From the NCBI GenBank assembly GCA_903907925.1, contig CAIVQB010000108.1, positions 1 through 45,797 on the forward strand: a stretch of DNA of 45,797 bases, read 5' to 3'. The DNA is from an uncultured Verrucomicrobiota bacterium (GTDB taxonomy: Bacteria; Verrucomicrobiota; Verrucomicrobiia; Limisphaerales; UBA9464). Position 1 is the stretch's first letter; the number at the start of each line of letters is the position of its first letter. Made by a program: the position numbers and the translations under genes. Below, in pieces: positions 1,880-31,659 of this stretch. The notes beneath the pieces are model-generated. The model was given only the letters and a program-made list of their open reading frames with translations. It did no database searches and was not told the DNA's origin.

Positions 1880-4800
1880 TCACTTCGCCGTTTGGCGCAG
1901 GTCGAGGGTGAACGGGAATTCGCGGTTCACCGCTTCCTCCGGCGGAAGGAACTTGCCCTGGGTGTGGCCTTGAACAAAGAACCGTCCCAGGCGACGACTT
2001 TCCGCTTCGTAGCTGTTCACCGGGAAGGTGTCGTAGCTGCGTCCGCCCGGATGGACCACGTGATAGGTGCAGCCGCCCAGCGACCGCTGATTCCAGCGAT
2101 CCCAAAGGTCGAATACCAGCGGTGCATGGACGCCGATGGTCGGTTGCAGACATTGATGCGGCTGCCAGGCGCGATAGCGAACACCCGCTACCGCTTCGCC
2201 GTTCGTTCCGGTTGAATGCAGCGGAACACGACGCCCATTGCAGGTGATGGCAAAGCGATCGCCGGCCAGTCCGGTCGCCTTCACCTGGAGACGTTCCACC
2301 GAACTGTCGACATAGCGTACCGTTCCTGCGCCCGACGGTTCCTCGCCGAGCACGTGCCAGGGTTCCAGGGCGGTTCGCAATTCGACCTCCACGTCCCGCT
2401 GGACGAAGTCGCCGATGCGCGGATAGCGGAATTCAAAGTGCGGCGCGAACCAGTCGAATTCGAACGGATATCCCGAGGCCCGCAGATCCTTCAGCACATC
2501 GCGGAAATCGGTCTCGCAGAAATGCGGGAGCATCCAACGATCATGGATGTCGGTGCCCCAGCGGACCAAAGATCCGGTGTAGGGCGTCTGCCAGAAACGC
2601 GACACGAGTCCACGCAACAGCAGGTGCTGCGCGAGGCTCATCCGCGCGTGCGGTGGCATTTCGAAGGCCCGCATTTCGATCAGGCCCATTCGCCCGCTGG
2701 CGCTGTCCGGTGAATAGAGTTTGTCGATGCTGAACTCGGCGCGATGGGTGTTGCCGCTCGAATCCAGCAGCAGATTACGGAAGAGCCGGTCCACCAACCA
2801 CGGGGGTGCCCATTTTCCGGTCTCCGGCAGTTGCTGGAAGGCCAGTTCGAGTTCGTACAGGGAATCATTCCGCGCCTCGTCGACGCGCGGCGCCTGACTG
2901 GTCGGTCCGATGAACAACCCGCTGAACAACCAACTGAGCGACGGATGATTCTGCCAATAAGACAGCAGCGAGCGCAGGAGGTCGGGTCGGCGCAGGATCG
3001 GTGAATCGGCGGGCGCCTCGGCGCCGAGCAGGATGTGATTGCCGCCGCCGGTTCCGGTGTGGCGACCGTCCATCATGAACTTTTCCGTACCGAGCCGGGT
3101 CTGGCGCGCCTCCTCGTACAACACCGTGGTCCGCTCCACCAACTGGTCCCAAGTCTTGCTGGGATGCAGATTGACCTCAATCACGCCGGGATCGGGCGTG
3201 ACTGCGAGGCGTTCGAGTCGAGGATCGCGGGGCGGCGCTTCGCCTTCCACCACCACCGGCATCTTCAACTCCGCCGCCGTGGCTTCAATGGCCGCGACGA
3301 GATCGAGATATTCCTCGGTGGATTCCACCGGCGGTAGAAACACGTGCAACCGGCCGTTGCGCGGTTCCACACACAATGCGGTCCGGATGATCCACGGCGC
3401 ACTCTGCAGCGGTTGGGGCGGGCGACTCGGATCGTCGTTGGTTGCACCCGGAGTTGGGCCCTTCGCGGGACGCGGACCCGATCCTCCCTGGAGGCGTTGA
3501 CCGGGTCCCTGTCCGGGCGCGAGGGGCAAGGCCGCCGCGCCACCGGCCGCGGTCACGAAACGCTGACCGGTCGATTCTGGAGCCGGCCGATAGGGAAATT
3601 CCGACGGCAACGGTGGCAGCTTTTGAAAACGGTCCGGCGGGAATTGCCAGGGAAACTCGTTCTCAGCCACCCAGGGAATGGAATCGATCGGCAGGCGAAG
3701 GCCCATCGGCGAATCACCCGGGATCAACCACATGATGTCTTCATCCCGCAGGAACCAGGCGCCGGAATTCCAGACCCGTTTTCCGGTGTCTTCGGTGCAG
3801 CGCAGCGGCAGGGCGTAGCCGACCACTTCGCCAAGTCCCTGCTGGAAGAGCCGGGCTATGCGTTCACGTTCCTGACGATCCTTCAAACGGGATTCCTCGG
3901 GCGTCACGTTGGCCGGCAGCCGGCGTTCCTTCCACGTGTAGTAGAAAACATCCTCGTACGCGGGTAGCAGGTGATCGGGAGTCACGCCCAGCATGAGGGC
4001 GAGGCGTTCAGCGAGCAGACGGGCTTCTGCCGCACCGTGGCCGTAATCCTTCGATTCATCGGCAATGAGGGTGTCGTCCTTCCACACCGGAACGCCGTCT
4101 TTTCGCCAGGAGGCTGCCAGCGCATACCGCGGCAGCGGTTCGCCGGGATACCATTTGCCCTGTCCGTAGTGGAGCAACGCACCCGGACCAAAGCGCTGAC
4201 GCAACCGCTTGATCAGCGCGCCCGACAACGCCCGTTTCTTCATCGAAACGGCGGTGAAATTCCATTCCGGTCCGTCCGGATCATCCACTGAAACAAAGGT
4301 CGGCTCGCCGCCCATCGTCAATCGCACGTCGAGCCGTTCCAGATCTTTGTCGATCATGTGGCCCGCCGTATCGATCCGCTTCCACTGCTCTTCAGTGTAC
4401 GGCAGCGTCACCCGGGGCGTTTCCAGGATCCGGGTGAGCGACATCTCATGGTGCAATGTCGTTTCACACTTGTCGACCGCTCCGGAAACCGGCGCCGCCG
4501 TGGCGGGCTCGGGAGTGCAGGACAGCGGGATGTGGCCTTCGCCGGCGAGAAGTCCCGAGGTCGGATCAAACCCGATCCATCCGGCACCCGGGATGAAGAC
4601 CTCGCACCAGGCGTGGAGATCGGTGAAATCGATTTCCGTGCCGCTGGGTCCATCCAGCGATTTCTGATCCGGGGTCAACTGGATCAGGTAACCGGACACA
4701 AACCGTGCAGCCAGTCCAAATGACCGCAACACCTGGACCAGCAGCCAGGATGAATCACGGCACGAACCCGAAGCCAGGGTCAGGGTTTCCTCGGGGGTCT

Positions 4801-5425
4801 GGACGCCCGGCTCGAGGCGGATGGTGTAGCTCACATCCTTCTGCACCCGTTGATTCAAGGCCACCAGCAGGTCGATGGTACGGATCTTCTTCGGAACCGC
4901 GACGGCGGCCGGAAGTTGCCCGGCAACCGGGAGGTGCCCGCCGGCTTCGGGATCCGCGGGATGTTCCGACACCGGCACCGGCGCCGGGGCCGCCGCTTCC
5001 GGGTGCCCCAGAATTTCGGCCTTCAGCTTCGCCACATAGGCATCGAATTTCGGGGAAACCGGTGAGGCCACGCGGAACGCCGCCAAGTCTTTCTGCAGCG
5101 TCGGTTCATAGACAAACGGGAAGTCGGTCGCCGCGTCCTCGATGAAGAAATCGAACGGATTGAGGACCGACATCTCGGCTACCAGTTCGACCTCGATGCA
5201 CAACTCCTTCGTCCGATTGGGGAAGACGAGTCGCCCGTTCCAGTTGGCGAAGGGATCCTGCTGCCAGTTCAGGAAGTGGTCCGCCGGGCGGACCTTGAGC
5301 GAATAGCTGAGAATCTTGGTCCGGCAATGCGGTGCAGGACGTAGCCGGACGATATGCGGGGAATGCCCCACCGGGCGGTCGTAGGTGTAGTGCGTCTTGT
5401 GGTGCAGTGCGACGTGAATGGCCAT
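1880..5425 (-). CDS. Transglutaminase-like protein with C-terminal DUF2126 region
   Basis: Large protein of 1181 aa from the ATG at 5425 (MAIHVALHHKTHYTYDRPV), which is the usual beginning of the bacterial transglutaminase-like N-terminal domain. An open frame extends 72 codons further upstream but is not protein-like. The order is an N-terminal beta domain (about 1-150), a transglutaminase core with a complete Cys-His-Asp triad (Cys222 in SGSCRDSSW, His271 in LHAWCEVF, Asp287 in GFDPTSG), then DUF2126 (from about 340, LTMGGEPTFV and GQGKWYPGEPLPRY). A Pro/Gly-rich linker splits the DUF2126 part. Relatives usually sit beside circularly permuted ATP-grasp and alpha-E proteins and are thought to act in peptide ligation or cleavage. 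None of those partners is in this window, so the substrate is unknown. Confidence 0.9.
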   Translation of the reverse strand: MAIHVALHHKTHYTYDRPVGHSPHIVRLRPAPHCRTKILSYSLKVRPADHFLNWQQDPFANWNGRLVFPNRTKELCIEVELVAEMSVLNPFDFFIEDAATDFPFVYEPTLQKDLAAFRVASPVSPKFDAYVAKLKAEILGHPEAAAPAPVPVSEHPADPEAGGHLPVAGQLPAAVAVPKKIRTIDLLVALNQRVQKDVSYTIRLEPGVQTPEETLTLASGSCRDSSWLLVQVLRSFGLAARFVSGYLIQLTPDQKSLDGPSGTEIDFTDLHAWCEVFIPGAGWIGFDPTSGLLAGEGHIPLSCTPEPATAAPVSGAVDKCETTLHHEMSLTRILETPRVTLPYTEEQWKRIDTAGHMIDKDLERLDVRLTMGGEPTFVSVDDPDGPEWNFTAVSMKKRALSGALIKRLRQRFGPGALLHYGQGKWYPGEPLPRYALAASWRKDGVPVWKDDTLIADESKDYGHGAAEARLLAERLALMLGVTPDHLLPAYEDVFYYTWKERRLPANVTPEESRLKDRQERERIARLFQQGLGEVVGYALPLRCTEDTGKRVWNSGAWFLRDEDIMWLIPGDSPMGLRLPIDSIPWVAENEFPWQFPPDRFQKLPPLPSEFPYRPAPESTGQRFVTAAGGAAALPLAPGQGPGQRLQGGSGPRPAKGPTPGATNDDPSRPPQPLQSAPWIIRTALCVEPRNGRLHVFLPPVESTEEYLDLVAAIEATAAELKMPVVVEGEAPPRDPRLERLAVTPDPGVIEVNLHPSKTWDQLVERTTVLYEEARQTRLGTEKFMMDGRHTGTGGGNHILLGAEAPADSPILRRPDLLRSLLSYWQNHPSLSWLFSGLFIGPTSQAPRVDEARNDSLYELELAFQQLPETGKWAPPWLVDRLFRNLLLDSSGNTHRAEFSIDKLYSPDSASGRMGLIEMRAFEMPPHARMSLAQHLLLRGLVSRFWQTPYTGSLVRWGTDIHDRWMLPHFCETDFRDVLKDLRASGYPFEFDWFAPHFEFRYPRIGDFVQRDVEVELRTALEPWHVLGEEPSGAGTVRYVDSSVERLQVKATGLAGDRFAITCNGRRVPLHSTGTNGEAVAGVRYRAWQPHQCLQPTIGVHAPLVFDLWDRWNQRSLGGCTYHVVHPGGRSYDTFPVNSYEAESRRLGRFFVQGHTQGKFLPPEEAVNREFPFTLDLRQTAK

Positions 5426-5692
5426 GGATAGTAGATTGGTGCCGGCATACGCCCGGGCGGCGGGGTTTGGGATACCCGCGGACGGAGGGTGTCGGAGCGG
5501 GCCGGCTCCGCAATTGTAAATTCCAAGCTCCTCACGGCTCGCGATCGGTGATTCCAGCTTTCCGGCGGCCACCGAGCCGGCTAAACCCTGCCTATCGAGA
5601 CCCGATCCGCTCATCTTGCAACAGTCGCCGGCGTCGCGCATTCCGGCGAAATCTCCAACGCCGGGCAGCTTCGATGGCTGTGGCGGGGACTG

Positions 5693-11723: not shown

Positions 11724-14700
11724 ATGACCGCCACACTTATTACCCGTCGCTGGCCCGCGCTCCTCAGTGGAGTGCTCGGCTTGCTGGTTGGATCGGCGCA
11801 TGCGGCGGGCCTGAGCGACCCGGAGTTTTTCGAACGGCAGATCCGTCCCCTTCTCGCGAATCATTGCTGGGAATGTCATGGAACGACCGGCACGGCAGGC
11901 GGCGGACTCCGTCTGGACACCGCGGAACACGCGGTCGCCGGTGGACAACACGGACCGGTCTGGTCCCAGACCGCACCCGAATCCAGCCGAATTCTTCAAG
12001 CGCTCCAAGGGCCACACCCAAAGAGTTCCGGCATCCCCCTGAACGGCGTCCCGAAATCCGCCGCCGCCGACCTGCAACGCTGGATCGCGGCCGGCGCCCG
12101 TTGGCCAGCGGTGCCGGCACCATCCTCTCCCACCACCGCCAGCGCTTTGATTCCGGGTGCCTTCCACCTTGAAGAGCGAAAACAGCGCCTGCCTTGGATT
12201 TGGGCGAAACCACAGGCTGTAACGCCGCCGACGGTTCACCTGCCGGCTTGGTCGGCTCATCCTGTCGACCGCTTCGTCCTGGCGCGTCTCGAAGCTGCCG
12301 GACTGCAACCCGCCGCCCCGTGCGATCCGTCCACCTGGCTCCGACGGGTCTCGTTTGCAGTGACGGGGCTGCCTCCGTCGATTGCCGACATCGAAGCCTT
12401 CCTGTCCGATCGATCCGAAAACGCCCGGGAACGCGTGGTGGATCGTCTGCTCGCATCACCGCGATTCGGTGAACGCTGGGCGCGTCATTGGATGGATCTG
12501 GTCCGCTATGCCGAATCCCGCGGGCACGAAGGCGACTACGTCATTCCGAACGCCTACGAGTATCGCGACTACCTCATCCGGGCGCTCAACGGCGACATTC
12601 GGTACGATCAATTGATTCGCGAACACGTCGCTGGTGATCTCTTGAGTCATCCCCGGAAGAATCCGGTGGAGGGATTTAACGAATCGGTGATCGCGACCGG
12701 CTGGGCGTTTCTTGGCGAAGAAATTCACGCGCCGGTGGACACCCGACAGGATGAATGCGACCGCATCGACAATCGCATCGATGTCTTCAGCAAAACGTTT
12801 CTGGGGCTGACCGTTTCCTGCGCCCGTTGCCACGACCACAAGTTCGATGCCATTTCCCAAAAGGACTACTACGCCCTCGCCGGGTTCTTCATCAGTTCCG
12901 GTTATCGTCAGGTGCGATTTGAAAACCAGACCCGCGATGCCGCGATCGCCGACCAACTAAACCGCCTGCACCGGGAATCGGATCGGGCCATCCGCGCGGG
13001 TATCGCCGCCGCCGTGTCTCCGGTTCTGGACCGGCTCGGTGATCTCGTGACTGCCGCAACGGCCGTCGCGCGCAAGATCGGCGCCGTGGATGCCGCCGGT
13101 GGGCTTCACTACCATGCCACGAACGAACTTCAGGCCGGTTGGAAGGACGTTGCCTCCGCCGAAGCCGCCGCTGCAAAACTGGACGCAAATCTAGTGAAAC
13201 GATGGACCGCCGGCCTCCTGCGCGCGGCCGCGGGCGCGGATGACGTTCTCCAACCGATCGCCGTCGCTGCCTTCGGGCTTTCATCGAATTCCGCCGGTCA
13301 TCGCGAATCCACTGCTTCGACCAGCCTCGCAAAGGTTCGCGTTCTGGCCGATTACAGTTCTCCAAACCCTCCGGCCTGGGTTGCCGATGGACTCGCCTTT
13401 GGATCCGCACCCACACCCGCCGGAAGTTGGCGTGTCGTGGAAAAAGCCGGCCGTTTCGAACTTCGATTGGCCACCCGAACTGCCGTGGTAACCGATCCGG
13501 TGTGGTGCCAGGTCAAGACCGCTCCTGGAGTCGAAGCCGAACCCACGATGTACGGATCCTGGAACCGTTCCGGACGGGTTCTCCGCGCGCCGAAACAGAT
13601 GCTCGAATCGGGCCATCTCCACTATCTCGTCCGCGGTGGCGGACGTGTCCTGGCATCGGTGGACTCGCAGGTTTTGGTGACCGGACCCATTCACACCGTG
13701 ATGGTGAAGGAATGGCCCACCTCGAAGGAATGGCGCTGGATTTCACAGGATCTCTCGGATTATCAGGGTCACCGGGTCGGACTCGAATTCACACCTGGTC
13801 CCGACGCCGACCTGGAGCTGGCCACCATTGTTGAAGCCGACACTGCACCGCTTACTCCGAACCGTGAGACCTTCCCACTCTCGTCGGACGGCACGGTCCA
13901 CGCCGTCGTTGAATTGTGGTCGCAACATCTCCGGTCTGCCGTCGACAGCTATGCGGCCGGTCACGCGACTCCGGCGGTACTCGATCAGATCGATTGGGAA
14001 GTGTCCCATCCGGACCTCTTTTCGGGTGTCACCAACACGTTTCCGGAGCCGATTCAATCCGCTGTCGCCCAATACTTGACTGCGCGCAAGGCGATCGAGG
14101 GCGGCATTCACTGGGAATCGCGAACGACCGCCGCCCTGCTCGACGGCAATGGCGTGGATGAATTCCTTCTCAAACGGGGATCACCCGGTCGTGCGGAGGG
14201 TGAGGTGCCCCGCCGTTTTCTCGAAGCTGTCGCCGGGCCCAACCCGATCGCCGGACCCACCGCCAGCGGCCGCCAGGAACTGGCCGATGTCCTGACCGAT
14301 CCCGCCAATCCGCTGGTCGCGCGGGTGATGGTCAATCGCGTCTGGCATCATCTCTTCGGCCGCGGACTGGTGCCCACGGTCGACAACTTTGGTTACCTCG
14401 GTGAACGCCCAAGTCATCCGGAATTGCTGGACTACCTCGCGGTCCAGTTCGTCGAAGAGGATCAATGGTCATTGAAACGATTGATCCGGAGGTTGGTGTT
14501 GACCGAGACCTTTGCCATGGACAGCCGGGTGTCCGATCCAGTGGCGGAAGAGAAGGATCCGGACAATCGGCTGCTGCATCGCGCCCATCTGAAGCGACTG
14601 GAGGGCGAGGCGATTCGCGATTCCATTCTCGCCGTGTCGGGCCGGCTGGAGGAACGGATGTACGGCGTGGGAGTCCCGCTGCATCCCTCGCAATTCATCG

Positions 14701-15131
14701 AGGCCCGGGGATTGCGTGCTGAACGCGGTCCACTCGACGGCGACGGCCGCCGCAGCATCTACATCGCGTCCCGGCGAAATTTTCTGCCGATGATGATGCT
14801 GGCCTTCGACACGCCGATTCCGTTCACCACCAACGGGCGTCGAAATGTGTCCAATGTTCCCGCGCAAATGCTGTTTCTGATGAACGATCCCTTCGTCCAT
14901 CAACAGGCGGAGGTCTGCGCCGCCCAACTCCGTCGCAACATGCCCGGAGCAACTCCCGCCGAATTGATCCGCGCCCTGTTCCTGGCCTGTTACAGCCGGC
15001 CGCCGACCGCGACGGAACTGGATCGATGCCTGAAAACACTCGCCGGAATGCCGTCTGGAATCGAGACCGATGGACTGGCCGAGCTGTGTCATGCGTTGTT
15101 CGGCGTGAAGGAATTTGTCTACCTTCGCTGA
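11724..15131 (+). CDS. PSCyt1-DUF1549-DUF1553 protein (Planctomycete-type cytochrome C domain)
   Basis: A 1135-aa exported protein. Residues 1-27 form a signal peptide ending SAHA. A haem-binding CxxCH motif (NHCWECHG, Cys48-Cys51-His52) lies in the PSCyt1 domain, and a second CxxCH (Cys366-Cys369-His370, SCARCHDHKFD) lies in DUF1549. DUF1553 fills the C-terminus (MVNRVWHHLFGRGLV, then FDTPIPFTTNGRRNVSN). Between DUF1549 and DUF1553 are about 350 residues with beta-rich character. The following DUF1501 gene starts 20 bases after the stop, and this two-gene unit is a hallmark of Planctomycetota and Verrucomicrobiota. A role in periplasmic or surface-bound polysaccharide or redox processing has been proposed, but the reaction is not established. 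Confidence 0.93.
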   Translation: MTATLITRRWPALLSGVLGLLVGSAHAAGLSDPEFFERQIRPLLANHCWECHGTTGTAGGGLRLDTAEHAVAGGQHGPVWSQTAPESSRILQALQGPHPKSSGIPLNGVPKSAAADLQRWIAAGARWPAVPAPSSPTTASALIPGAFHLEERKQRLPWIWAKPQAVTPPTVHLPAWSAHPVDRFVLARLEAAGLQPAAPCDPSTWLRRVSFAVTGLPPSIADIEAFLSDRSENARERVVDRLLASPRFGERWARHWMDLVRYAESRGHEGDYVIPNAYEYRDYLIRALNGDIRYDQLIREHVAGDLLSHPRKNPVEGFNESVIATGWAFLGEEIHAPVDTRQDECDRIDNRIDVFSKTFLGLTVSCARCHDHKFDAISQKDYYALAGFFISSGYRQVRFENQTRDAAIADQLNRLHRESDRAIRAGIAAAVSPVLDRLGDLVTAATAVARKIGAVDAAGGLHYHATNELQAGWKDVASAEAAAAKLDANLVKRWTAGLLRAAAGADDVLQPIAVAAFGLSSNSAGHRESTASTSLAKVRVLADYSSPNPPAWVADGLAFGSAPTPAGSWRVVEKAGRFELRLATRTAVVTDPVWCQVKTAPGVEAEPTMYGSWNRSGRVLRAPKQMLESGHLHYLVRGGGRVLASVDSQVLVTGPIHTVMVKEWPTSKEWRWISQDLSDYQGHRVGLEFTPGPDADLELATIVEADTAPLTPNRETFPLSSDGTVHAVVELWSQHLRSAVDSYAAGHATPAVLDQIDWEVSHPDLFSGVTNTFPEPIQSAVAQYLTARKAIEGGIHWESRTTAALLDGNGVDEFLLKRGSPGRAEGEVPRRFLEAVAGPNPIAGPTASGRQELADVLTDPANPLVARVMVNRVWHHLFGRGLVPTVDNFGYLGERPSHPELLDYLAVQFVEEDQWSLKRLIRRLVLTETFAMDSRVSDPVAEEKDPDNRLLHRAHLKRLEGEAIRDSILAVSGRLEERMYGVGVPLHPSQFIEARGLRAERGPLDGDGRRSIYIASRRNFLPMMMLAFDTPIPFTTNGRRNVSNVPAQMLFLMNDPFVHQQAEVCAAQLRRNMPGATPAELIRALFLACYSRPPTATELDRCLKTLAGMPSGIETDGLAELCHALFGVKEFVYLR

Positions 15132-15151
15132 TCCCCTACCCTGATTTCCCG

Positions 15152-16600
15152 ATGAACCCTCAACTCCTCGCCGCCCACGCCGCCGGTCGACGACCGTTGA
15201 CCCGGCGCGAGATGCTCCGGCAATGCGCCTGCGGTTTCGCTGCCACGGCGTTTGCGGGAATGTCGGCATCGCTGGCCCAGGCGGCCGCGGCGAGTTCGGG
15301 AATGCTGCCACGGAAACCCCACGCCCCGCCGCGGGCGCGAAACGTCATCTTCCTCTACATGGATGGCGGCGTCTCGCAGGTGGACAGCTTCGACTACAAA
15401 CCGATGCTGGAATTGCATCACGGCAAGGAGCCGCGCTCGGTGATGGGGCCGCTGGAGAAGACGCAGTTCAACAACATCGGCCGGGTGATGAAATCACACT
15501 GGTCCTTCGCCCGGCATGGCCAGTCGGGTCAATGGGCCAGCACGCTCTTTCCGCAGATCGCGCGGGAGATCGACAGCCTTTGCCTCATCAAATCGATGAC
15601 GTCAAAGTTCCCCGAGCATACCAGCGCGAATTATTTCCTGCATTCCGGCACCGGTCTTCAGGGACGTCCAAGCATCGGTGCCTGGGCGGCTTACGGACTC
15701 GGCACTGAGAATCAGAACGTGCCCGGTTTCGTGGTGTTGAACGGCGGACTCATCCCGTCGGGAGGACTCGACAACTTCAATAGCGGATTCCTTCCCGCCA
15801 CCTATCAGGCGTCGATCCTGGAAGCCAAGGATCCGCCATTGATGAACATCCGTCCGATGGAACACCTGGCCGGATTGCAGCGAACCAAGATGGATCTCAT
15901 CCACGAGTTGGATCAGGAAACCGCGCGGATCGCGGGGCATCCTGATCCGTTGGAATCGGCCATCGCCAATCATGAGCTGGCCGCACGGATGCAGTTGGAA
16001 GTTCCGGAATTGCTCGCGCTTCAAGGTGAATCCGAGGCTACCCGGCAGTTGTACGGAATGGATTCGGACTACGAACCGACACGCATTTACGCCCGGCAGT
16101 GCCTCATCGCGCGGCGGCTCGTCGAGCGCGGGGTGCGGTTTATCGAACTGACCTGTCCGCGCATCTCCGGCTGCGACCGGTGGGATGCCCACAGTGGGTT
16201 GCTGCAGAATCATGGACAGAACGCGCGCGCCGTGGACCAACCCATCCGCGGCCTGCTCGTCGATCTCAAGGCGCGCGGACTGCTGGACGAAACGCTGGTG
16301 GTCTTTTCGGGTGAATTCGGACGCACGCCGTTTGCGCAGGGCGGCGACGGCAGGGATCACAACCAGTTCGCCTTCACCGCCTGGCTGGCCGGCGGGGGCA
16401 GCAAGCCCGGCGTTTCGATCGGCGGCACCGATGAATGGGGTTACAAGGCGATCGATCGTCCGTTCGAGATGCACGATTTGCACGCGACGTTGCTGCATCT
16501 GCTGGGGCTGGATCACACGAAACTCACCTATCGATTTGGCGGACGCGATCTGCGGTTGACCGATGTCTACGGCGACGTGATTGCGGATGCGGTAGTGTGA
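15152..16600 (+). CDS. DUF1501 family protein (alkaline phosphatase/sulfatase-like fold)
   Basis: A 482-aa protein from the ATG at 15152 (MNPQLLAAHAAGRRPLTRRE). The N-terminus carries a twin-arginine-like signal (LTRREMLRQCACGFAATAFA), suggesting export in folded form. Family marks include FLYMDGGVSQVDSFDYKP, HTSANYFLHSGTG, the metal-site segment FSGEFGRTPF and the closing DHTKLTYRFGGRDLRLTDV. DUF1501 proteins belong to the alkaline phosphatase superfamily, but their substrate is unknown. No CxPxR sulfatase motif is present, so the formylglycine-generating enzyme downstream is unlikely to modify this protein in the usual way. It is almost certainly co-transcribed with the DUF1549/DUF1553 gene 20 bases upstream. 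Confidence 0.93.
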   Translation: MNPQLLAAHAAGRRPLTRREMLRQCACGFAATAFAGMSASLAQAAAASSGMLPRKPHAPPRARNVIFLYMDGGVSQVDSFDYKPMLELHHGKEPRSVMGPLEKTQFNNIGRVMKSHWSFARHGQSGQWASTLFPQIAREIDSLCLIKSMTSKFPEHTSANYFLHSGTGLQGRPSIGAWAAYGLGTENQNVPGFVVLNGGLIPSGGLDNFNSGFLPATYQASILEAKDPPLMNIRPMEHLAGLQRTKMDLIHELDQETARIAGHPDPLESAIANHELAARMQLEVPELLALQGESEATRQLYGMDSDYEPTRIYARQCLIARRLVERGVRFIELTCPRISGCDRWDAHSGLLQNHGQNARAVDQPIRGLLVDLKARGLLDETLVVFSGEFGRTPFAQGGDGRDHNQFAFTAWLAGGGSKPGVSIGGTDEWGYKAIDRPFEMHDLHATLLHLLGLDHTKLTYRFGGRDLRLTDVYGDVIADAVV

Positions 16601-16740
16601 ATTGTGAACTTTGGCGGCATGACTGGCCGTCAGGATGCCGGCGCTCCCAGTGGGGTTGGCCGTGAAATCCGGCCCGATTTTCTTTCAACTGAACCACTTC
16701 ACGAAATGACCGCAGCTGCTTCCCATTCCACCACACCCGG

Positions 16741-17790
16741 ATGAAACGACGCGCTTGGATTGTGGGAGGCGGACTAGTGATTTTGGCGGCCAGCCAATGC
16801 TTCGAGAACTTCGCTGGTGAGGCCGTGAAACCGGACGAAACCCCTCCCACGGGAATGGTCCGCATTCCGGGGGGCGAATTCATGATGGGCACCGTGGATC
16901 CGCGGGACAAGGAGTGTGGCGGTCGGGAACCGATGACTGACGCCCGTCCGATCCACCGGGTCCGGGTGGATCCCTTCTGGATGGACGCCACCGAGGTGAC
17001 CAACGGGGAATTCCGCGGCTTCGTCGACGCAACCCATTACGTCACCGTCGCCGAGCGGCCCTTGCGTCCGGAGGAGTTTCCGGGAGTGCCCAAGGAAGAA
17101 CTGGTGCCCGGGTCGGTTGTTTTCACCGCGCCCAAAACACCGGTCCCACTCGACGATTTCCAGCAATGGTGGAGCTATGTCCCCGGTGCGAACTGGCGGC
17201 ATCCCGAAGGCCCAAAAACCGGGATCGACGGGCGCGATTCATTCCCGGTCGTTCACATCGCCTTCGCGGATGCGGAAGCCTTCGCGCGTTGGGCGAAGAA
17301 ACGGCTGCCCACTGAGGCGGAATGGGAATTCGCCGCGCGGGGCGGTCTGTCTGGGGCAACGTACACTTGGGGCGAAGAGCTTCGACCCGGCGGCAAATGG
17401 ATGGCGAACATTCATCAGGGCCATTTCCCCGATCGCGATTCCGGCGCGGATGGTTTCGTGGGAATCGCACCGGTGGGACAGTTCCCGGCCAACGGCTACG
17501 GACTCCGCGACATGGCGGGCAATGTCTGGGAATGGTGCTCCGACTGGTACCGGCCAGACTACTATCAGACCCTCGCCGCAACCGGAGCAGTCGCCGTAAA
17601 TCCGCGGGGTCCGGCGGACAGTTTCGATCCACGGGAGCCCGGTGTCCCAAAACGCGTGCATCGCGGCGGTTCCTTCCTCTGCACCGACGAATACTGCACC
17701 CGCTACATGGTCGGCACCCGGGGCAAAGGCGAACTCAGCACCGGCAGCAACCATCTCGGTTTTCGCTGCGTCCGGGCTGTGGCCAAGTGA
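16741..17790 (+). CDS. Formylglycine-generating enzyme (FGE-sulfatase domain), exported
   Basis: A 349-aa protein with a signal-like N-terminus (MKRRAWIVGGGLVILAAS) and then one complete FGE-sulfatase domain: MVRIPGGEFMMGT, DATEVTNGEF, RLPTEAEWEFAARGG, GNVWEWCSDWY and GFRCVRA. Unlike many SUMF1-like proteins, it keeps both copper-binding catalytic cysteines, Cys314 and Cys319 (GGSFLCTDEYCTRY), with the same five-residue spacing as human SUMF1 Cys336/Cys341. It should therefore be able to oxidise a sulfatase cysteine to formylglycine. No sulfatase is encoded in the window. The gene lies 140 bases after DUF1501 and may be its own unit; that gap holds no clear signal. Confidence 0.93.
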   Translation: MKRRAWIVGGGLVILAASQCFENFAGEAVKPDETPPTGMVRIPGGEFMMGTVDPRDKECGGREPMTDARPIHRVRVDPFWMDATEVTNGEFRGFVDATHYVTVAERPLRPEEFPGVPKEELVPGSVVFTAPKTPVPLDDFQQWWSYVPGANWRHPEGPKTGIDGRDSFPVVHIAFADAEAFARWAKKRLPTEAEWEFAARGGLSGATYTWGEELRPGGKWMANIHQGHFPDRDSGADGFVGIAPVGQFPANGYGLRDMAGNVWEWCSDWYRPDYYQTLAATGAVAVNPRGPADSFDPREPGVPKRVHRGGSFLCTDEYCTRYMVGTRGKGELSTGSNHLGFRCVRAVAK

Positions 17791-26655: not shown

Positions 26656-27702
26656 CTACGGCTTTCGTCCGGTGAGCACGCCGCAGTGGACCGCCGTGGA
26701 CGCAACACTCGCTTCCGGAATCAACCCTGCCGCACGAAGCCACTCTCGATATTCGCCCGCGCTGTAGGCACGGCCTTCGGTGAGGGAAAACAGGGCAGCG
26801 GAATACAGCGCGACTGGCAGAGGGCCGCCCAGATCTTCAGCGAGAAACACGTCGTGAATCAAAAGCCGGCCTCCGGGTGAAAGCGCTTCCGAACAGCGCC
26901 GCACCAGTATCTCACATTCGGCCACATCCCAGTCGTGCAGAATGTTCGACAGCAGGACCACGTCGGCAAAGGGTAGCGGCGCCGTGAACATGTCGCCGGA
27001 TACCAATTCCAACCGATCCGACACCCCAGCCGCGGTCGAGAACTCCGCAGCCACTTTCAGCACTTCCGGGCGATCCAGCACGGTGGCGGTCAGACCCGGA
27101 TTCGCCTGCAACAGACTGATCGCATACAGACCCGTGCCGCCCCCCACGTCGAGGAGATGCGCAACGCCGCGCAAGTCCAGCACCCGCGCGACATGCGGAG
27201 CCACGTTTTTGGCGCGACCCGCCAGCGCCAGAGTCAGGGCACGCGCCGACGCCTCCTGTTCCATGGCGGAATCCAATCCCTCCCGGAAAATAAACGCGGC
27301 CCCATCCTCGTCTTTCCCTGCTCCGGCGGGTCGATTGGTTCGCAGACGTTCCACCAACGCCAGAACTCCGGGCGCCTTGGCGGCCAGTCCGCAATAGTCG
27401 CCGACGTAGAAATCGCCGTCGGGAACCAGGTGTTCCAACCCCAGCGGGGTCAGTTCAAGGAGCCCATCCGAACGGCGTTGAACCGTTCCCATCGCCCGCA
27501 ACGCCGTCACCAGAACGTTCGCGGACCGCATTGATATCGCGAGATCCGCGGCCAGCACTTCCAGCGACTGGGGCTTGGTCGCCAGTTTCTCAAACACACG
27601 AAAATGAGCCACCGCAGACACCAACAACTCGGTGGCATAGTTCCCACGGGCCAACTCAAACAACGGTGTGGGGTCAGTCTGCGGCAATGCGGTGTGGTTC
27701 AC
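26656..27702 (-). CDS. SAM-dependent O-methyltransferase (acetylserotonin/hydroxyneurosporene-type)
   Basis: A 348-aa protein from GTG 27702, chosen because an AGGA lies 7 bases upstream and because the frame further upstream reads through a REP-like repeat. An N-terminal winged-helix dimerisation domain (about 1-100, LFELARGNYATELLVSAVAHF) is followed by a Rossmann methyltransferase. That domain carries motif I LLDVGGGTGLYAI near residue 185, an acidic end in VLDRPEV, and the family motif LSNILHDWDVAECEILV. This layout is that of plant-type O-methyltransferases (Methyltransf_2), which act on small aromatic or polyketide-like compounds. No biosynthetic cluster is visible, so the substrate is unknown. 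Confidence 0.9.
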   Translation of the reverse strand: MNHTALPQTDPTPLFELARGNYATELLVSAVAHFRVFEKLATKPQSLEVLAADLAISMRSANVLVTALRAMGTVQRRSDGLLELTPLGLEHLVPDGDFYVGDYCGLAAKAPGVLALVERLRTNRPAGAGKDEDGAAFIFREGLDSAMEQEASARALTLALAGRAKNVAPHVARVLDLRGVAHLLDVGGGTGLYAISLLQANPGLTATVLDRPEVLKVAAEFSTAAGVSDRLELVSGDMFTAPLPFADVVLLSNILHDWDVAECEILVRRCSEALSPGGRLLIHDVFLAEDLGGPLPVALYSAALFSLTEGRAYSAGEYREWLRAAGLIPEASVASTAVHCGVLTGRKP

Positions 27703-27709
27703 CCGCGAA

Positions 27710-27713
27710 TCCT
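27710..27713 (-). promoter_or_regulatory. Shine-Dalgarno AGGA for the methyltransferase
   Basis: On the minus strand the sequence reads ACAGGATTCGCGG before GTG, placing AGGA 7 bases from the start codon. Most other genes in the window lack such a motif, so it decides this start. Confidence 0.6.
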
Positions 27714-27816
27714 GTCCGACCCATCCCTCCCCGTCAGCCGAGAAGATGTGCCGCGGAATCCACCCGGAGTTCCGGCTTCGGTCGGTCGCTGGAAGAGGTA
27801 AGCCTTCTACCCAAAT

Positions 27817-27861
27817 CCTTGGGCGATGCCCAAGGCTGGTATGTCGCGGGCCTTTGGCCCT
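27817..27861 (+). repeat. REP-like palindromic repeat, family A, copy 2
   Basis: Perfect first hairpin CCTTGGGC-GAT-GCCCAAGG, a 12-base spacer, then a second perfect hairpin GGGCC-TTT-GGCCC followed by T. It matches copy 1 (11579-11623) at 41 of 45 positions. It sits in the gap between the divergent methyltransferase and GH59 genes. Confidence 0.75.
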
Positions 27862-27973
27862 CCGTCTCCCACTTGCACCCGAGGCCCACCGGCGGCAGCG
27901 TAACCCCATCGTGCCGCGACCACCGCATTCACCCCTGCCTCACCGGGTCGTCCGGCGGGACTGCCTTCTGCGA

Positions 27974-30964
27974 GTGGGCATCGCCGCACGAAGATTGCGT
28001 TGGGTCTTCATCGGGCTGCTCGCCGTTCTGTTCCGCGCCGCGGCGGTCGACATCGTACTCGATGGCGCGCTCCCGGGTCGGGTATTCGAGGGATTGGGCG
28101 GGGTGAGCGCCGGCGCATCGACGCGGTTGTTGATCGATTATCCCCCCGCCCAGCGCGCCGAGATTCTCGACTATCTGTTCAAGCCGGGATTCGGAGCCTC
28201 GCTCCAGCATTTGAAGGTGGAGGTCGGTGGTGACGTAAATTCCACCGACGGCACCGAGCCCAGCCACATGCGCGTCGCGGGCGAGGAAAACTACGAGCGC
28301 GGTTGGGAATGGTGGCTGATGCGCGAGGCGCAGAACCGGAATCCCGATCTGACCCTGGACGCCTTGTGCTGGGGCGCGCCCGGCTGGGTAGGCAGCGGGG
28401 AGTTCTATTCGCCGGAGACCGCCGACTATCTCGCGAAATTTCTCACCGGCGCGCTGCGGGAACACGGGCTCGTCATTCGCACTCTCGGCATCTGGAATGA
28501 AAAACCTTACTCCATCGATTGGATCAAACTGCTAAGGCGTCGCCTCGATGAGACCGGATGGACTGCTGTCGGAATCGTGGCCGCCGATGAATGGGATCAA
28601 CCGTGGCGGATCGCGGGTGACATGCTCGCGGATCCGGAATTCGCCGCTGCGATCCACGCCATCGGCGTTCATTATCCGCATTCGATTGGAAGCCCGTTGG
28701 CGCTGCAGACCGGAAAGCCGCTCTGGGCCAGCGAAGATGGAACGGGGGGCGGCACCGGTGCGAGCCCGTGGGAATCCGCCCGACGGCTGGCCCGGATCTA
28801 CAATCGGAACTATACCGACGCCCACATCACCAAGACCGAGATATGGAGTCCGGTCTCAGCGTACTACGACAGCCTGCCGTACAACGATTCCGGTTTAATG
28901 CGGGCCAACACGCCGTGGTCGGGATTTTACGAAGTGCTCCCGGCCATTTGGGTCACCGCCCACACAACACAATTCGCCAAGCCGGGATGGATTTATCTCG
29001 ACGGCCAGGCCTCCGCCCGCCTGCCGTTCGGCGGCAGTATCGTCACGCTTCGATCCCCGGACGGCAGCGATTTTTCAACCGTGATCGAAACCATCGATTC
29101 CGGCATCGCCCAAACGCTCGTGTTGCACGCCACCAACGGCATTCCACGGGTTCCGCTCCAACTTTGGCGGACCCGCGATGGTGAATCGTTTGCCCATTTG
29201 GAATCGGTACCGGTGACCAACGACGGTTGGAGTTTCACCGTCGACCCGGAATGCATCTACACCCTCAGCACCACGACTGGACAATCGCGCGGCAGCACTC
29301 AGCCGCCCTCGCCACAGCCGTTGGGGCTTCCGTATCAGGATGAGTTTGAGCAGGGCGCGGTTCACAGCCTGCCGGCCGGGTTCATCGATCAGGGAGGTGC
29401 CTTCGAAACCGAAGATCGCGACGACGGCGATGGACGACTGCTGCGCCAACAACTGCAGCAGACGGGGATCGAATGGTATTACCCGCAGACGCAGGCCTTC
29501 ACCCTCACTGGTGACTCCAACTGGACCGACTACGAAGTCAGCGTCCTGGCGCGATTGCCCGTCGCAGGCGAAGCCGCCCTGCTCGGTCGCATCGGACCCA
29601 CTCCGCCGCCGCCTGCAGCGCCAAACGCCTACAGCCTGGTGATGCTCCATTCATCGAATGGAACCGGCGACCGATTCGAACTGCGCGGTCCTTCATCGAC
29701 GCTGGCCACCGGTGCACTCGATCCAATCGGAACGAATTGGCATTCGCTCCGACTCCGACTTCAAGGCGCGTCCATCCGTGCCTGGGTGGACAACCGGGTG
29801 GTCGCCGATCTTCAGGACGCGACACTGGCAGCAGGCCGTGTGGGCGTCGGCAGCGGATGGCATACCGCCGACTTCGATCGACTGCAGGTGCGTCGACTTC
29901 CAAGGGCTGCTCAGAACTTGGCGCGGAATGCGGTCGCGACGGCGTCGAGCACGTGGAGCGGCGACTACACTGCGGATCGGGCCATTGACGGCAATCCCGC
30001 ATCCCGCTGGAACTCGGCTCCGGTCCCGGGCCTGGTGGAGTGGATTCAACTGACCTTCTCCCGGGACACCCGGATCAACCGCATCGAACTGGCCGAATAC
30101 GGCGAACGCATTCGCGCCTACCAGATTCAACATTGGGACGGAAACCATTGGATCACGGATATCACGGGCGATGTCCTGCCCATGCAGGCCACCCTGACGC
30201 TACCGGAGATCACCACGTCGCAGGTTCGACTGCTCGTGACCTCCATGACCGATGCCATCTCCATCGAGGAATTCGGTGTGTACGACGACGTTTCTGGTGG
30301 AACGCCGGTTCGAATCAGCGAATGGATGCTGCACAACGTGACCGCGTTGAGGGATCCCGCGGACGATCGGTTCAAGCCGTGGATTGAACTGTGGAATTCC
30401 GGGAGCCAGCCGGCCGATCTCGGTGGATTCCATCTCTCCGATGATCCGACGGATCCGCTCAAAGGTTCGCTTCCGTCGGGAACAGTCCTGGCTCCCGGCG
30501 AGCGGCGTGTTGTTTGGTGCGGCAGACCGGTGAACATGAGTCCGGTGAACCAGGATCTTCACGTGGACATTCTCCCAATGGAGCAAGGGACCATTGGCCT
30601 CTACTCCCCTGAGGGCAGCCCGGTTGAGGTAATCGATCTGGATCGACAGGAGGTGGATCGTTCGCGCGGCATTTCGGATGCAGCGAGCGATGCGGTGATC
30701 GATCTGATCCGTCCAACTCCCGGCACCGCCAACACTCCGTTGATCGCCCTGCCGGTGAGCTGGGATACCCAGAGATCCCGGCTGGTTCTGGCGTTTCGTG
30801 GGCAGCCCTTCACCTCGCATCGCATCGAAACTTCAACACACGCCGCGGGCGGCGACTGGCAGGAACTCGGCAACCTGGACAGCGATGCGGACGGAGCCTT
30901 TCATCTGCAGGTCTCACCGAGCCCCGTCGACCGACAATTCTTTCGCGCCGTGGAACAACAATAG
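27974..30964 (+). CDS. Secreted GH59 galactocerebrosidase-like glycosidase with discoidin and lamin-tail domains
   Basis: About 996 aa from GTG 27974, just before a signal-like helix (LRWVFIGLLAVLFRAAA); GTG 27911 and TTG 27995 are alternatives. The next 630 residues align along their length with animal galactosylceramidase (GH59): RVFEGLGGVSAGASTRLLID, HLKVEVGGDVNSTDGTEPSH, YERGWEWWLM and WVTAHTTQFAKPGWIYL. The acid/base Glu176 (GIWNEK) and nucleophile Glu254 (LWASEDG) are both kept. The lectin-like domain near residues 440-640 is present too. An F5/8-type C (discoidin) domain follows (ARNAVATASSTWSGDYTADR), then a lamin-tail domain (ISEWMLHNVTAL). It should release beta-galactose outside the cell; the true substrate is unknown. 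Confidence 0.9.
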   Translation: MGIAARRLRWVFIGLLAVLFRAAAVDIVLDGALPGRVFEGLGGVSAGASTRLLIDYPPAQRAEILDYLFKPGFGASLQHLKVEVGGDVNSTDGTEPSHMRVAGEENYERGWEWWLMREAQNRNPDLTLDALCWGAPGWVGSGEFYSPETADYLAKFLTGALREHGLVIRTLGIWNEKPYSIDWIKLLRRRLDETGWTAVGIVAADEWDQPWRIAGDMLADPEFAAAIHAIGVHYPHSIGSPLALQTGKPLWASEDGTGGGTGASPWESARRLARIYNRNYTDAHITKTEIWSPVSAYYDSLPYNDSGLMRANTPWSGFYEVLPAIWVTAHTTQFAKPGWIYLDGQASARLPFGGSIVTLRSPDGSDFSTVIETIDSGIAQTLVLHATNGIPRVPLQLWRTRDGESFAHLESVPVTNDGWSFTVDPECIYTLSTTTGQSRGSTQPPSPQPLGLPYQDEFEQGAVHSLPAGFIDQGGAFETEDRDDGDGRLLRQQLQQTGIEWYYPQTQAFTLTGDSNWTDYEVSVLARLPVAGEAALLGRIGPTPPPPAAPNAYSLVMLHSSNGTGDRFELRGPSSTLATGALDPIGTNWHSLRLRLQGASIRAWVDNRVVADLQDATLAAGRVGVGSGWHTADFDRLQVRRLPRAAQNLARNAVATASSTWSGDYTADRAIDGNPASRWNSAPVPGLVEWIQLTFSRDTRINRIELAEYGERIRAYQIQHWDGNHWITDITGDVLPMQATLTLPEITTSQVRLLVTSMTDAISIEEFGVYDDVSGGTPVRISEWMLHNVTALRDPADDRFKPWIELWNSGSQPADLGGFHLSDDPTDPLKGSLPSGTVLAPGERRVVWCGRPVNMSPVNQDLHVDILPMEQGTIGLYSPEGSPVEVIDLDRQEVDRSRGISDAASDAVIDLIRPTPGTANTPLIALPVSWDTQRSRLVLAFRGQPFTSHRIETSTHAAGGDWQELGNLDSDADGAFHLQVSPSPVDRQFFRAVEQQ

Positions 30965-31006
30965 CAGCGCGGTCACCCCTTCAACCTCTCTCCGTCCACC
31001 CTTCCT

Positions 31007-31450
31007 TCAAGGCACCGACCCCAATCCTGCAATCTTCTCCAGCCGCACCGCATGACGTCCGCCTTCAAACGGTGTTTCGAGGAACAGGCGCACCAGCACT
31101 TCCAATTCGCCGGATTCGATGAGCCGGGCACCCAGGGAGAGAACATTTGCGTCGTTGTGGGCTCGGGTCAGTCGGACCGATTCGCGATTCCATCCGATTC
31201 CGCAGCGGACGCCCTTGATTTTGTTGGCGGCCATCGCCTCGCCATTTCCGGATCCGCCAAATACAAAACCCCGTTCGCATCGGCCCGAAGCGACCGCGCG
31301 GGCGGCGGGAAGGATGAAATCGGGATAGTCGACGGCATCCGTGGAGAAACAGCCGAAGTCGAGGGGGTCGTGTCCCAGCTCGGTCAGGATGGACTTCACC
31401 CGCTCTTTGAACGGGAAACCTGCGTGATCGGTGCCGAGGGCGATTTTCAT
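31007..31450 (-). CDS. rpiB: Ribose-5-phosphate isomerase B
   Basis: A 147-aa enzyme from ATG 31450 (MKIALGTDHAGF); an ATG 18 codons upstream adds a tail not typical of the family. It interconverts ribose 5-phosphate and ribulose 5-phosphate. The active-site loop is FGGSGNGEAMAANKIKG, which has Ser-Gly-Asn-Gly-Glu where the E. coli enzyme has Cys-Gly-Thr-Gly. This places it in the Mycobacterium-type group that uses the glutamate as base. RAHNDANVLSLGARLI and the EGGRHAVRLEKI ending are standard. It converges on the GH59 gene with a 42-base gap and diverges from the M16 peptidase. Confidence 0.94.
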   Translation of the reverse strand: MKIALGTDHAGFPFKERVKSILTELGHDPLDFGCFSTDAVDYPDFILPAARAVASGRCERGFVFGGSGNGEAMAANKIKGVRCGIGWNRESVRLTRAHNDANVLSLGARLIESGELEVLVRLFLETPFEGGRHAVRLEKIAGLGSVP

Positions 31451-31659
31451 GGGAACAGAAAGTGAAGGGGCCGACTGAACATCTCCAACGGCCTGGGTCG
31501 CCATGCTGACCGACCCGGAGCGTCTCCGCCAGCCTGCAAGCCGGGTGATTTGCCTTCACCCCGCGTCGATCCAATGCCCTGAGCCCAACCGGGGGGGTCG
31601 CCGGTCAAATTCAAGACGGGTTTTGCGTTCCCGGCGCGAATCCGTAGCGTTCGCGGGCC

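Follow-up and report, generated by a model that had tools for sequence, protein, structure and literature searches.

A Verrucomicrobiota member of family GH59 that keeps the catalytic residues of animal GALC, lacks its R380 stretch and carries additional C-terminal domains

The animal galactocerebrosidase GALC is the enzyme lost in Krabbe disease, and glycoside hydrolase family GH59 is known mostly from this one enzyme and its disease. The catalytic roles of E182 and E258 in mouse GALC and its contacts to galactose, R380 among them, are described in PMC4445328, and according to PMC5764952 both E182 and R380 shift upon substrate binding. PMC4445328, PMC5764952, PMC5342196 and PMC11739564 were drawn on; PMC8065580, which deals with a GH1 enzyme, was set aside. 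No characterised bacterial GH59 enzyme was found among the titles retrieved in literature searches that covered mostly work outside subscription journals.

The stretch of DNA analysed here, 45,797 nucleotides from an uncultured Verrucomicrobiota bacterium and called the window below, encodes a GH59 protein of 996 amino acids in a frame without a stop codon (Table 1). The GTG start is only probable since the frame is open upstream to position 27668; full-length relatives from genomes of the same order align over residues 2-995 (G456), 5-996 (G522) and 11-994 (G438). Judging from its N-terminus, the protein is probably exported. The Pfam profile Glyco_hydro_59 scored 365 bits against a cut-off of 27 (E 3.8e-109), the lectin profile Glyco_hydro_59_C 43.7 bits against 27 and F5_F8_type_C 57.5 bits against 28.2, while two further profiles stayed under their cut-offs, namely Glyco_hydro_59M (18.9 bits; cut-off 28) and LTD (29.8 bits; cut-off 34.3). 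In the search of the bacterium's own genome, which holds one GH59 profile match, this LTD reached 34.0, or 34.7 together with its neighbours. The phmmer matches of the F5/8C region include the discoidin domains of glucanase and chitosanase entries such as 4zxe and 2rv9. Both the GC content of the gene (0.622) and its GC3 (0.715) lie inside the range of the neighbouring genes. A promoter scan gave no sites, and a single terminator-like site was found within the gene, on the opposite strand, fewer than in shuffled sequences.

Table 1. Features of the GH59 gene and its two flanking genes (positions in the window; residues of the GH59 protein)
Feature	Position	Strand	Basis
Flanking O-methyltransferase gene, bounding the optional GH59 site on the left	26656..27909	-	Pfam
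GH59 gene, GTG start (probable)	27974..30964	+	Pfam, phmmer; full-length relatives
Putative signal peptide, residues 1-24	27974..28045	+	By eye: two arginines, hydrophobic run, AAA before VDIVLDG
GH59 catalytic barrel, residues 38-333	28085..28972	+	Pfam PF02057, 1-294 of 294
Acid/base glutamate E176 (mouse E182)	28499..28501	+	Alignment
Nucleophile glutamate E254 (mouse E258)	28733..28735	+	Alignment
Short turn, residues 371-384; the mouse GALC chain is longer here by 14 residues, R380 among them	29084..29125	+	Alignment, model
GH59 C-terminal lectin domain, residues 472-641, including W501 (mouse W524)	29387..29896	+	Pfam PF21708
F5/8 type C domain (discoidin, CBM32-like), residues 655-766	29936..30271	+	Pfam PF00754; phmmer
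Lamin-tail-type domain (LTD), residues 778-882	30305..30619	+	Pfam PF00932 below cut-off; support from relatives
Tail at the C-terminus (residues 886-996; last residues FFRAVEQQ)	30629..30961	+	Aligned in five full-architecture proteins
Flanking RpiB gene, bounding the optional GH59 site on the right	31007..31504	-	Pfam

A phmmer search against the PDB matched mouse GALC to residues 32-610 of the window protein (E 1.2e-104), the two proteins being 38% identical. An AlphaFold2 model built from a 48-row alignment had a mean pLDDT of 81.1 and was confident over chain residues 1-748; in the LTD tail (model residues 751-973) pLDDT was mostly below 50, and the tail modelled on its own from five sequences also came out weak (mean pLDDT 63.1). 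With this model as query, mouse GALC was found first by Foldseek (E 1.5e-62, TM-score by target length 0.89) and also by VIA-align 2 (Z 54.5, 605 residues aligned at 1.9 A), the next family in the latter search being GH30 (Z 40.8, 400 residues aligned). The barrel, sandwich and lectin domains of GALC are all present, as seen in the fold match and, for the lectin domain, in its profile score. Judged by sequence and model, the window protein is a confirmed member of GH59 in family, fold and catalytic residues. The sequence-only reading had proposed a GH59 protein with both catalytic glutamates, the lectin domain and an added F5/8C domain, and on all these points Pfam, the match to mouse GALC and the alignment agree with it; neither membership of another GH-A family nor loss of the catalytic site was found, mouse GALC ranking above GH30 in the fold searches.

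The pocket residues were mapped in an alignment of 89 rows, which comprised the window protein, mouse GALC, 80 named loci (the best 80 of 240) and seven further sequences. Across all 87 distinct bacterial rows of this sample, mouse E182, E258, W135 and N181 are invariant; T93 is present in 86 of them and W524 in 82. The window protein retains the galactose contacts T93, W135, N181 and W524 (mouse numbering), and carries Ala in place of G48 and Thr in place of S261, two positions that are also changed in 69 and 72, respectively, of the 87 distinct bacterial rows; the G48 contact may be made through the backbone, in which case its change may be harmless. Furthermore, mouse residues 377-390, a stretch of 14 residues including R380, correspond to gaps in all 87 bacterial rows of the best-80-of-240 sample that span the site, the window's included (one row stops short of the site, and the 87 include one duplicate contig). 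The model has a short turn here with pLDDT of about 97, linking its strands 344-349 and 357-364 (numbered as in the model). Mouse C271 and C378 also have no cysteine counterpart in the window protein. The core of the active site is thus that of GALC, except that one of the animal enzyme's contacts is missing across the bacterial sample. Because the R380 stretch is absent, here as in all spanning bacterial rows, the name galactocerebrosidase that had been given to the protein should not be carried over as its function; the genome's single ceramidase match (24.4 bits) is likewise under the cut-off of 32.1.

From sequence and model, the window protein is likely to be an exported retaining exo-beta-galactosidase. 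E254 would attack the anomeric carbon with E176 as acid/base, so that a terminal beta-galactose would be removed with retained configuration; both this activity and the preference for galactose are inferred. The F5/8C domain would probably anchor the enzyme to carbohydrate, and the LTD with the tail may serve as a surface or scaffold module of a kind usual in this lineage. As the R380 stretch is missing, the aglycon site is expected to differ from that of animal GALC, and since a loop with which the animal enzyme holds galactose is absent, the natural target is probably not the lipid cut by that enzyme; substrates likelier than galactosylceramide would be beta-galactosides from glycans or glycolipids of plants, algae or microbes. 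The absence of R380 could also signal a different sugar specificity.

Within the phylum, the GH59 profile matched at E <1e-80 in 8 of 288 genomes, that of the window included. Matches to P0001 of E 1e-90 or better that cover the barrel were found in 17 of 146 genomes of the order, and matches of E 1e-8 or better to the GH59 lectin domain in 28 of 245, with 35 over the curated cut-off. A two-motif scan of GTDB r220 yielded at least 240 GH59 stretches confirmed by tblastn, the best 80 of which are the loci used throughout; together with seven further rows they carry ten NCBI phylum labels. Bacterial GH59 is a broad but patchy branch, and the suggestion that such proteins are uncommon in bacteria is therefore right as to their scatter in the phylum but not as to their spread across GTDB. 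The profile also matched in two of 14 control genomes. Weak hits in the phylum search (E 1.5e-17 to 3.9e-4), which are presumably GH30-like, were not counted as GH59, nor was a partial match of 36.3 bits in G405. Two stretches of viral contigs matched a pattern and neither encodes a relative; four plasmid records matched, three of them in the F5/8C region and one, from Kitasatospora, in the GH59 part. In a second group of bacterial GH59 proteins (L033, L035, L036, L037, L100, L106 and L117) the motifs surrounding the glutamates are altered, several rows reading GCRNE, TEDHVY or TEEHVY.

The full layout of GH59 barrel, lectin, F5/8C, LTD and tail recurs in four genomes of the same order besides that of the window (G456, G338, G522 and G438). 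The LTD proposed from the sequence is weak in the window protein itself, and in three of these four relatives it exceeds the cut-off of 34.3 (47.6 in G338, 48.7 in G522 and 39.7 in G438), the closest relative, G456, staying under it at 30.3. LTD has 31 matches in the bacterium's own genome, distributed over nine frames (up to 3457 amino acids) including that of the window protein, with many of the matches lying in very long proteins, and the LTD with the tail matches numerous long frames across the order; these occurrences mark the two as a module of the lineage, and so common a module is hardly informative on the substrate. Among the best 80 of 240 loci, blastp gave no match to the LTD tail better than E 0.73, and the F5/8C domain matched with E <1e-8 in seven, with one more at 0.001. 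Among 48 aligned GH59 proteins, F5_F8_type_C occurs in nine and LTD only in that of the window. Other bacterial GH59 proteins have other partners. A GH36 alpha-galactosidase is fused to GH59 in one frame of 1335 amino acids (L137:5734-9738, minus strand, on a contig shared with L045), and fragments of a similar GH36 precede the GH59 of L039; in L079:2625-6005 (plus strand) a single frame of 1127 amino acids joins a sulfatase to GH59. Further partners are a ricin-type lectin (L093), NPCBM-associated and F5/8C domains (L096) and Big_2 (L103, L108). Such partners fit decorated galactosides, without fixing the substrate of the window protein.

Two narrower substrate assignments draw on these fusions. 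It is possible, although the odds are against it, that the window protein is an exo-enzyme acting on galactans that bear sulfate or other decorations, or on polysaccharides resembling glycosaminoglycans, as part of a larger degradation set. Besides the fusion in L079, a similar sulfatase lies about 250 bases or less from GH59 in L065, L073, L085 and L110, and at a distance of a few kilobases in L044 and L032, and G338, which has the layout of the window protein, carries a polysaccharide lyase 8 gene and an XylR-type regulator nearby. The sulfatases of L079, L065 and L073 are, however, 82-84% alike and so represent one lineage. The window itself is without a degradation set, the neighbours being housekeeping genes, and no polysaccharide-degradation cluster was seen near its GH59 gene among the proteins scanned; none of the five sulfatase matches in the genome is on the window's contig. 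Around 14 close loci, moreover, the 78 neighbours (two of them GH59) have as their top family an epimerase-type one with four members, and no polysaccharide set is prominent among the 25 neighbour families listed. It is rather unlikely that the protein is a bacterial counterpart of GALC which, as a galactolipid head-group hydrolase, takes galactose off the mono- and digalactosyl lipids of plants or algae, or off other galactosyl lipids. Its family, its fold and most of its pocket residues are those of a lipid-acting enzyme, and the GH36-GH59 fusion of L137 would fit the stripping of first alpha- and then beta-galactose from digalactosyl lipids. That fusion, however, is known from one genome and the fragment in L039, and fits oligosaccharides too; the added module is of a carbohydrate-binding type, no lipase or ceramidase gene neighbours GH59 in the window, and the stretch around R380, mobile when mouse GALC binds its substrate according to PMC5764952, is absent.

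The same order of genes as in the window, O-methyltransferase, GH59, RpiB, M16 peptidase and FtsH, is found in G456, a genome of the same genus. In three further genomes of the genus (G293, G351 and G424) the interval between the O-methyltransferase and RpiB genes measures 46, 328 and 1320 bases and contains no GH59 gene, and a search for GH59 remnants in these genomes gave no match better than E 0.28. With GH59 present in two of the five genus genomes, and in two of the 16 genomes of the same family in the sample, it is seen as one optional gene between O-methyltransferase and RpiB. The loci compared were window 26656-31504, L147, L152, L153 and L154; the interval in G424 seemingly holds an epimerase-like frame (by eye). 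Elsewhere in the window, a protein of 1253 amino acids (1883-5641, minus strand) combines transglutaminase-like domains with a DUF2126 putative amidoligase, and a PSCyt1/PSCyt2/PSD1 protein, a DUF1501 protein and an FGE-sulfatase-type protein are encoded consecutively at 11724-17787 (plus strand). It might be argued from the three genomes without the gene, and from the fact that the copy in G456 is only 56% identical over its length whereas the flanking genes reach 69-87%, that the window gene is decayed or an artefactual call. Such an interpretation is most improbable, as the frame contains no stop, the catalytic residues are kept and residues 1-748 are modelled with confidence; the divergence is, moreover, uneven, the barrel being 73% identical to that of G456 and the last 110 residues 38%.

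Two trees were calculated, a first, quicker one without L031 (a duplicate contig), L034 and L118 (both cut short), and a second one of 60 rows, for which 33 of the 89 rows were dropped (mostly near-copies, and also the long-branch L091 and L103) and four were added. In the 60-row tree the window protein and that of G456 pair with support of 100/100, and the two group with those of G338, G522 and G438 at a moderate 84/86; this group of five is placed inside a Verrucomicrobiota-Lentisphaerota group (89/81, not starred). Mouse GALC stands on a long branch and its placement is unsure; in the first tree it joined a Bacteroidota row (95 SH-aLRT), a pairing flagged as long branches meeting. The window protein probably falls within a bacterial GH59 lineage of Verrucomicrobiota type and does not look like a recent animal import. 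Acquisition of the gene from an animal or another eukaryote by horizontal transfer, although the protein bears full-length similarity to mouse GALC and the gene is optional in the genus, is very unlikely. In AU tests with one animal sequence and long branches, neither a joint clade of window and mouse (p 0.351) nor one of window, G456 and mouse (p 0.099) was rejected; yet the identity to mouse GALC is below that to many bacterial rows, which reaches 51% in the first set and, in the tree alignment, 65% for the closest, G456. The R380 stretch, C271 and C378 are missing as in bacteria, five genomes of a single order share the layout, and the composition is ordinary. Together with sequence identity and composition, the architecture and the lack of the stretch speak for ordinary bacterial descent, and in trees that contain a single eukaryotic sequence the question raised earlier, transfer or an old bacterial clade, leans towards the latter.

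A broader scenario may be put forward tentatively. Bacterial GH59 proteins would be old and widespread exo-beta-galactosidases without the R380 stretch, and animal GALC a derived form that gained the stretch on turning to sphingolipids; in the Verrucomicrobiota branch, represented by the window protein, F5/8C and LTD modules would have anchored the enzyme to glycans or the cell surface, and other lineages would have fused an alpha-galactosidase or a sulfatase to GH59 to clear decorations first. The window protein is one ordinary member of this bacterial set, which keeps the core of GALC in the absence of the R380 stretch. The set is thus a natural comparison for the role of that stretch and a warning against labelling bacterial GH59 proteins as galactocerebrosidase, and the GH36 and sulfatase fusions are leads to their substrates.

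In comparison with the known systems, the three-domain fold and both glutamates are common to the window protein and animal GALC (mouse structures 3zr5, 4ccc and 5nxb), whereas the R380 stretch, C271 and C378 belong to the animal enzyme alone of the two and F5/8C and LTD are additions of the window protein. The GH30 xylanases and glucocerebrosidase share with it the (beta/alpha)8 barrel and the sandwich part but not the GH59 lectin domain, at 15-18% identity and over only about 337-400 residues. In the other bacterial GH59 proteins (the best 80 of 240 loci and the matches in the order and phylum), the pocket residues and the missing R380 stretch are as in the window protein. Among those with its full layout, the protein of G338 differs in having two F5/8C stretches, and those of G456, G522 and G438 are 42-56% identical to it by tblastn.
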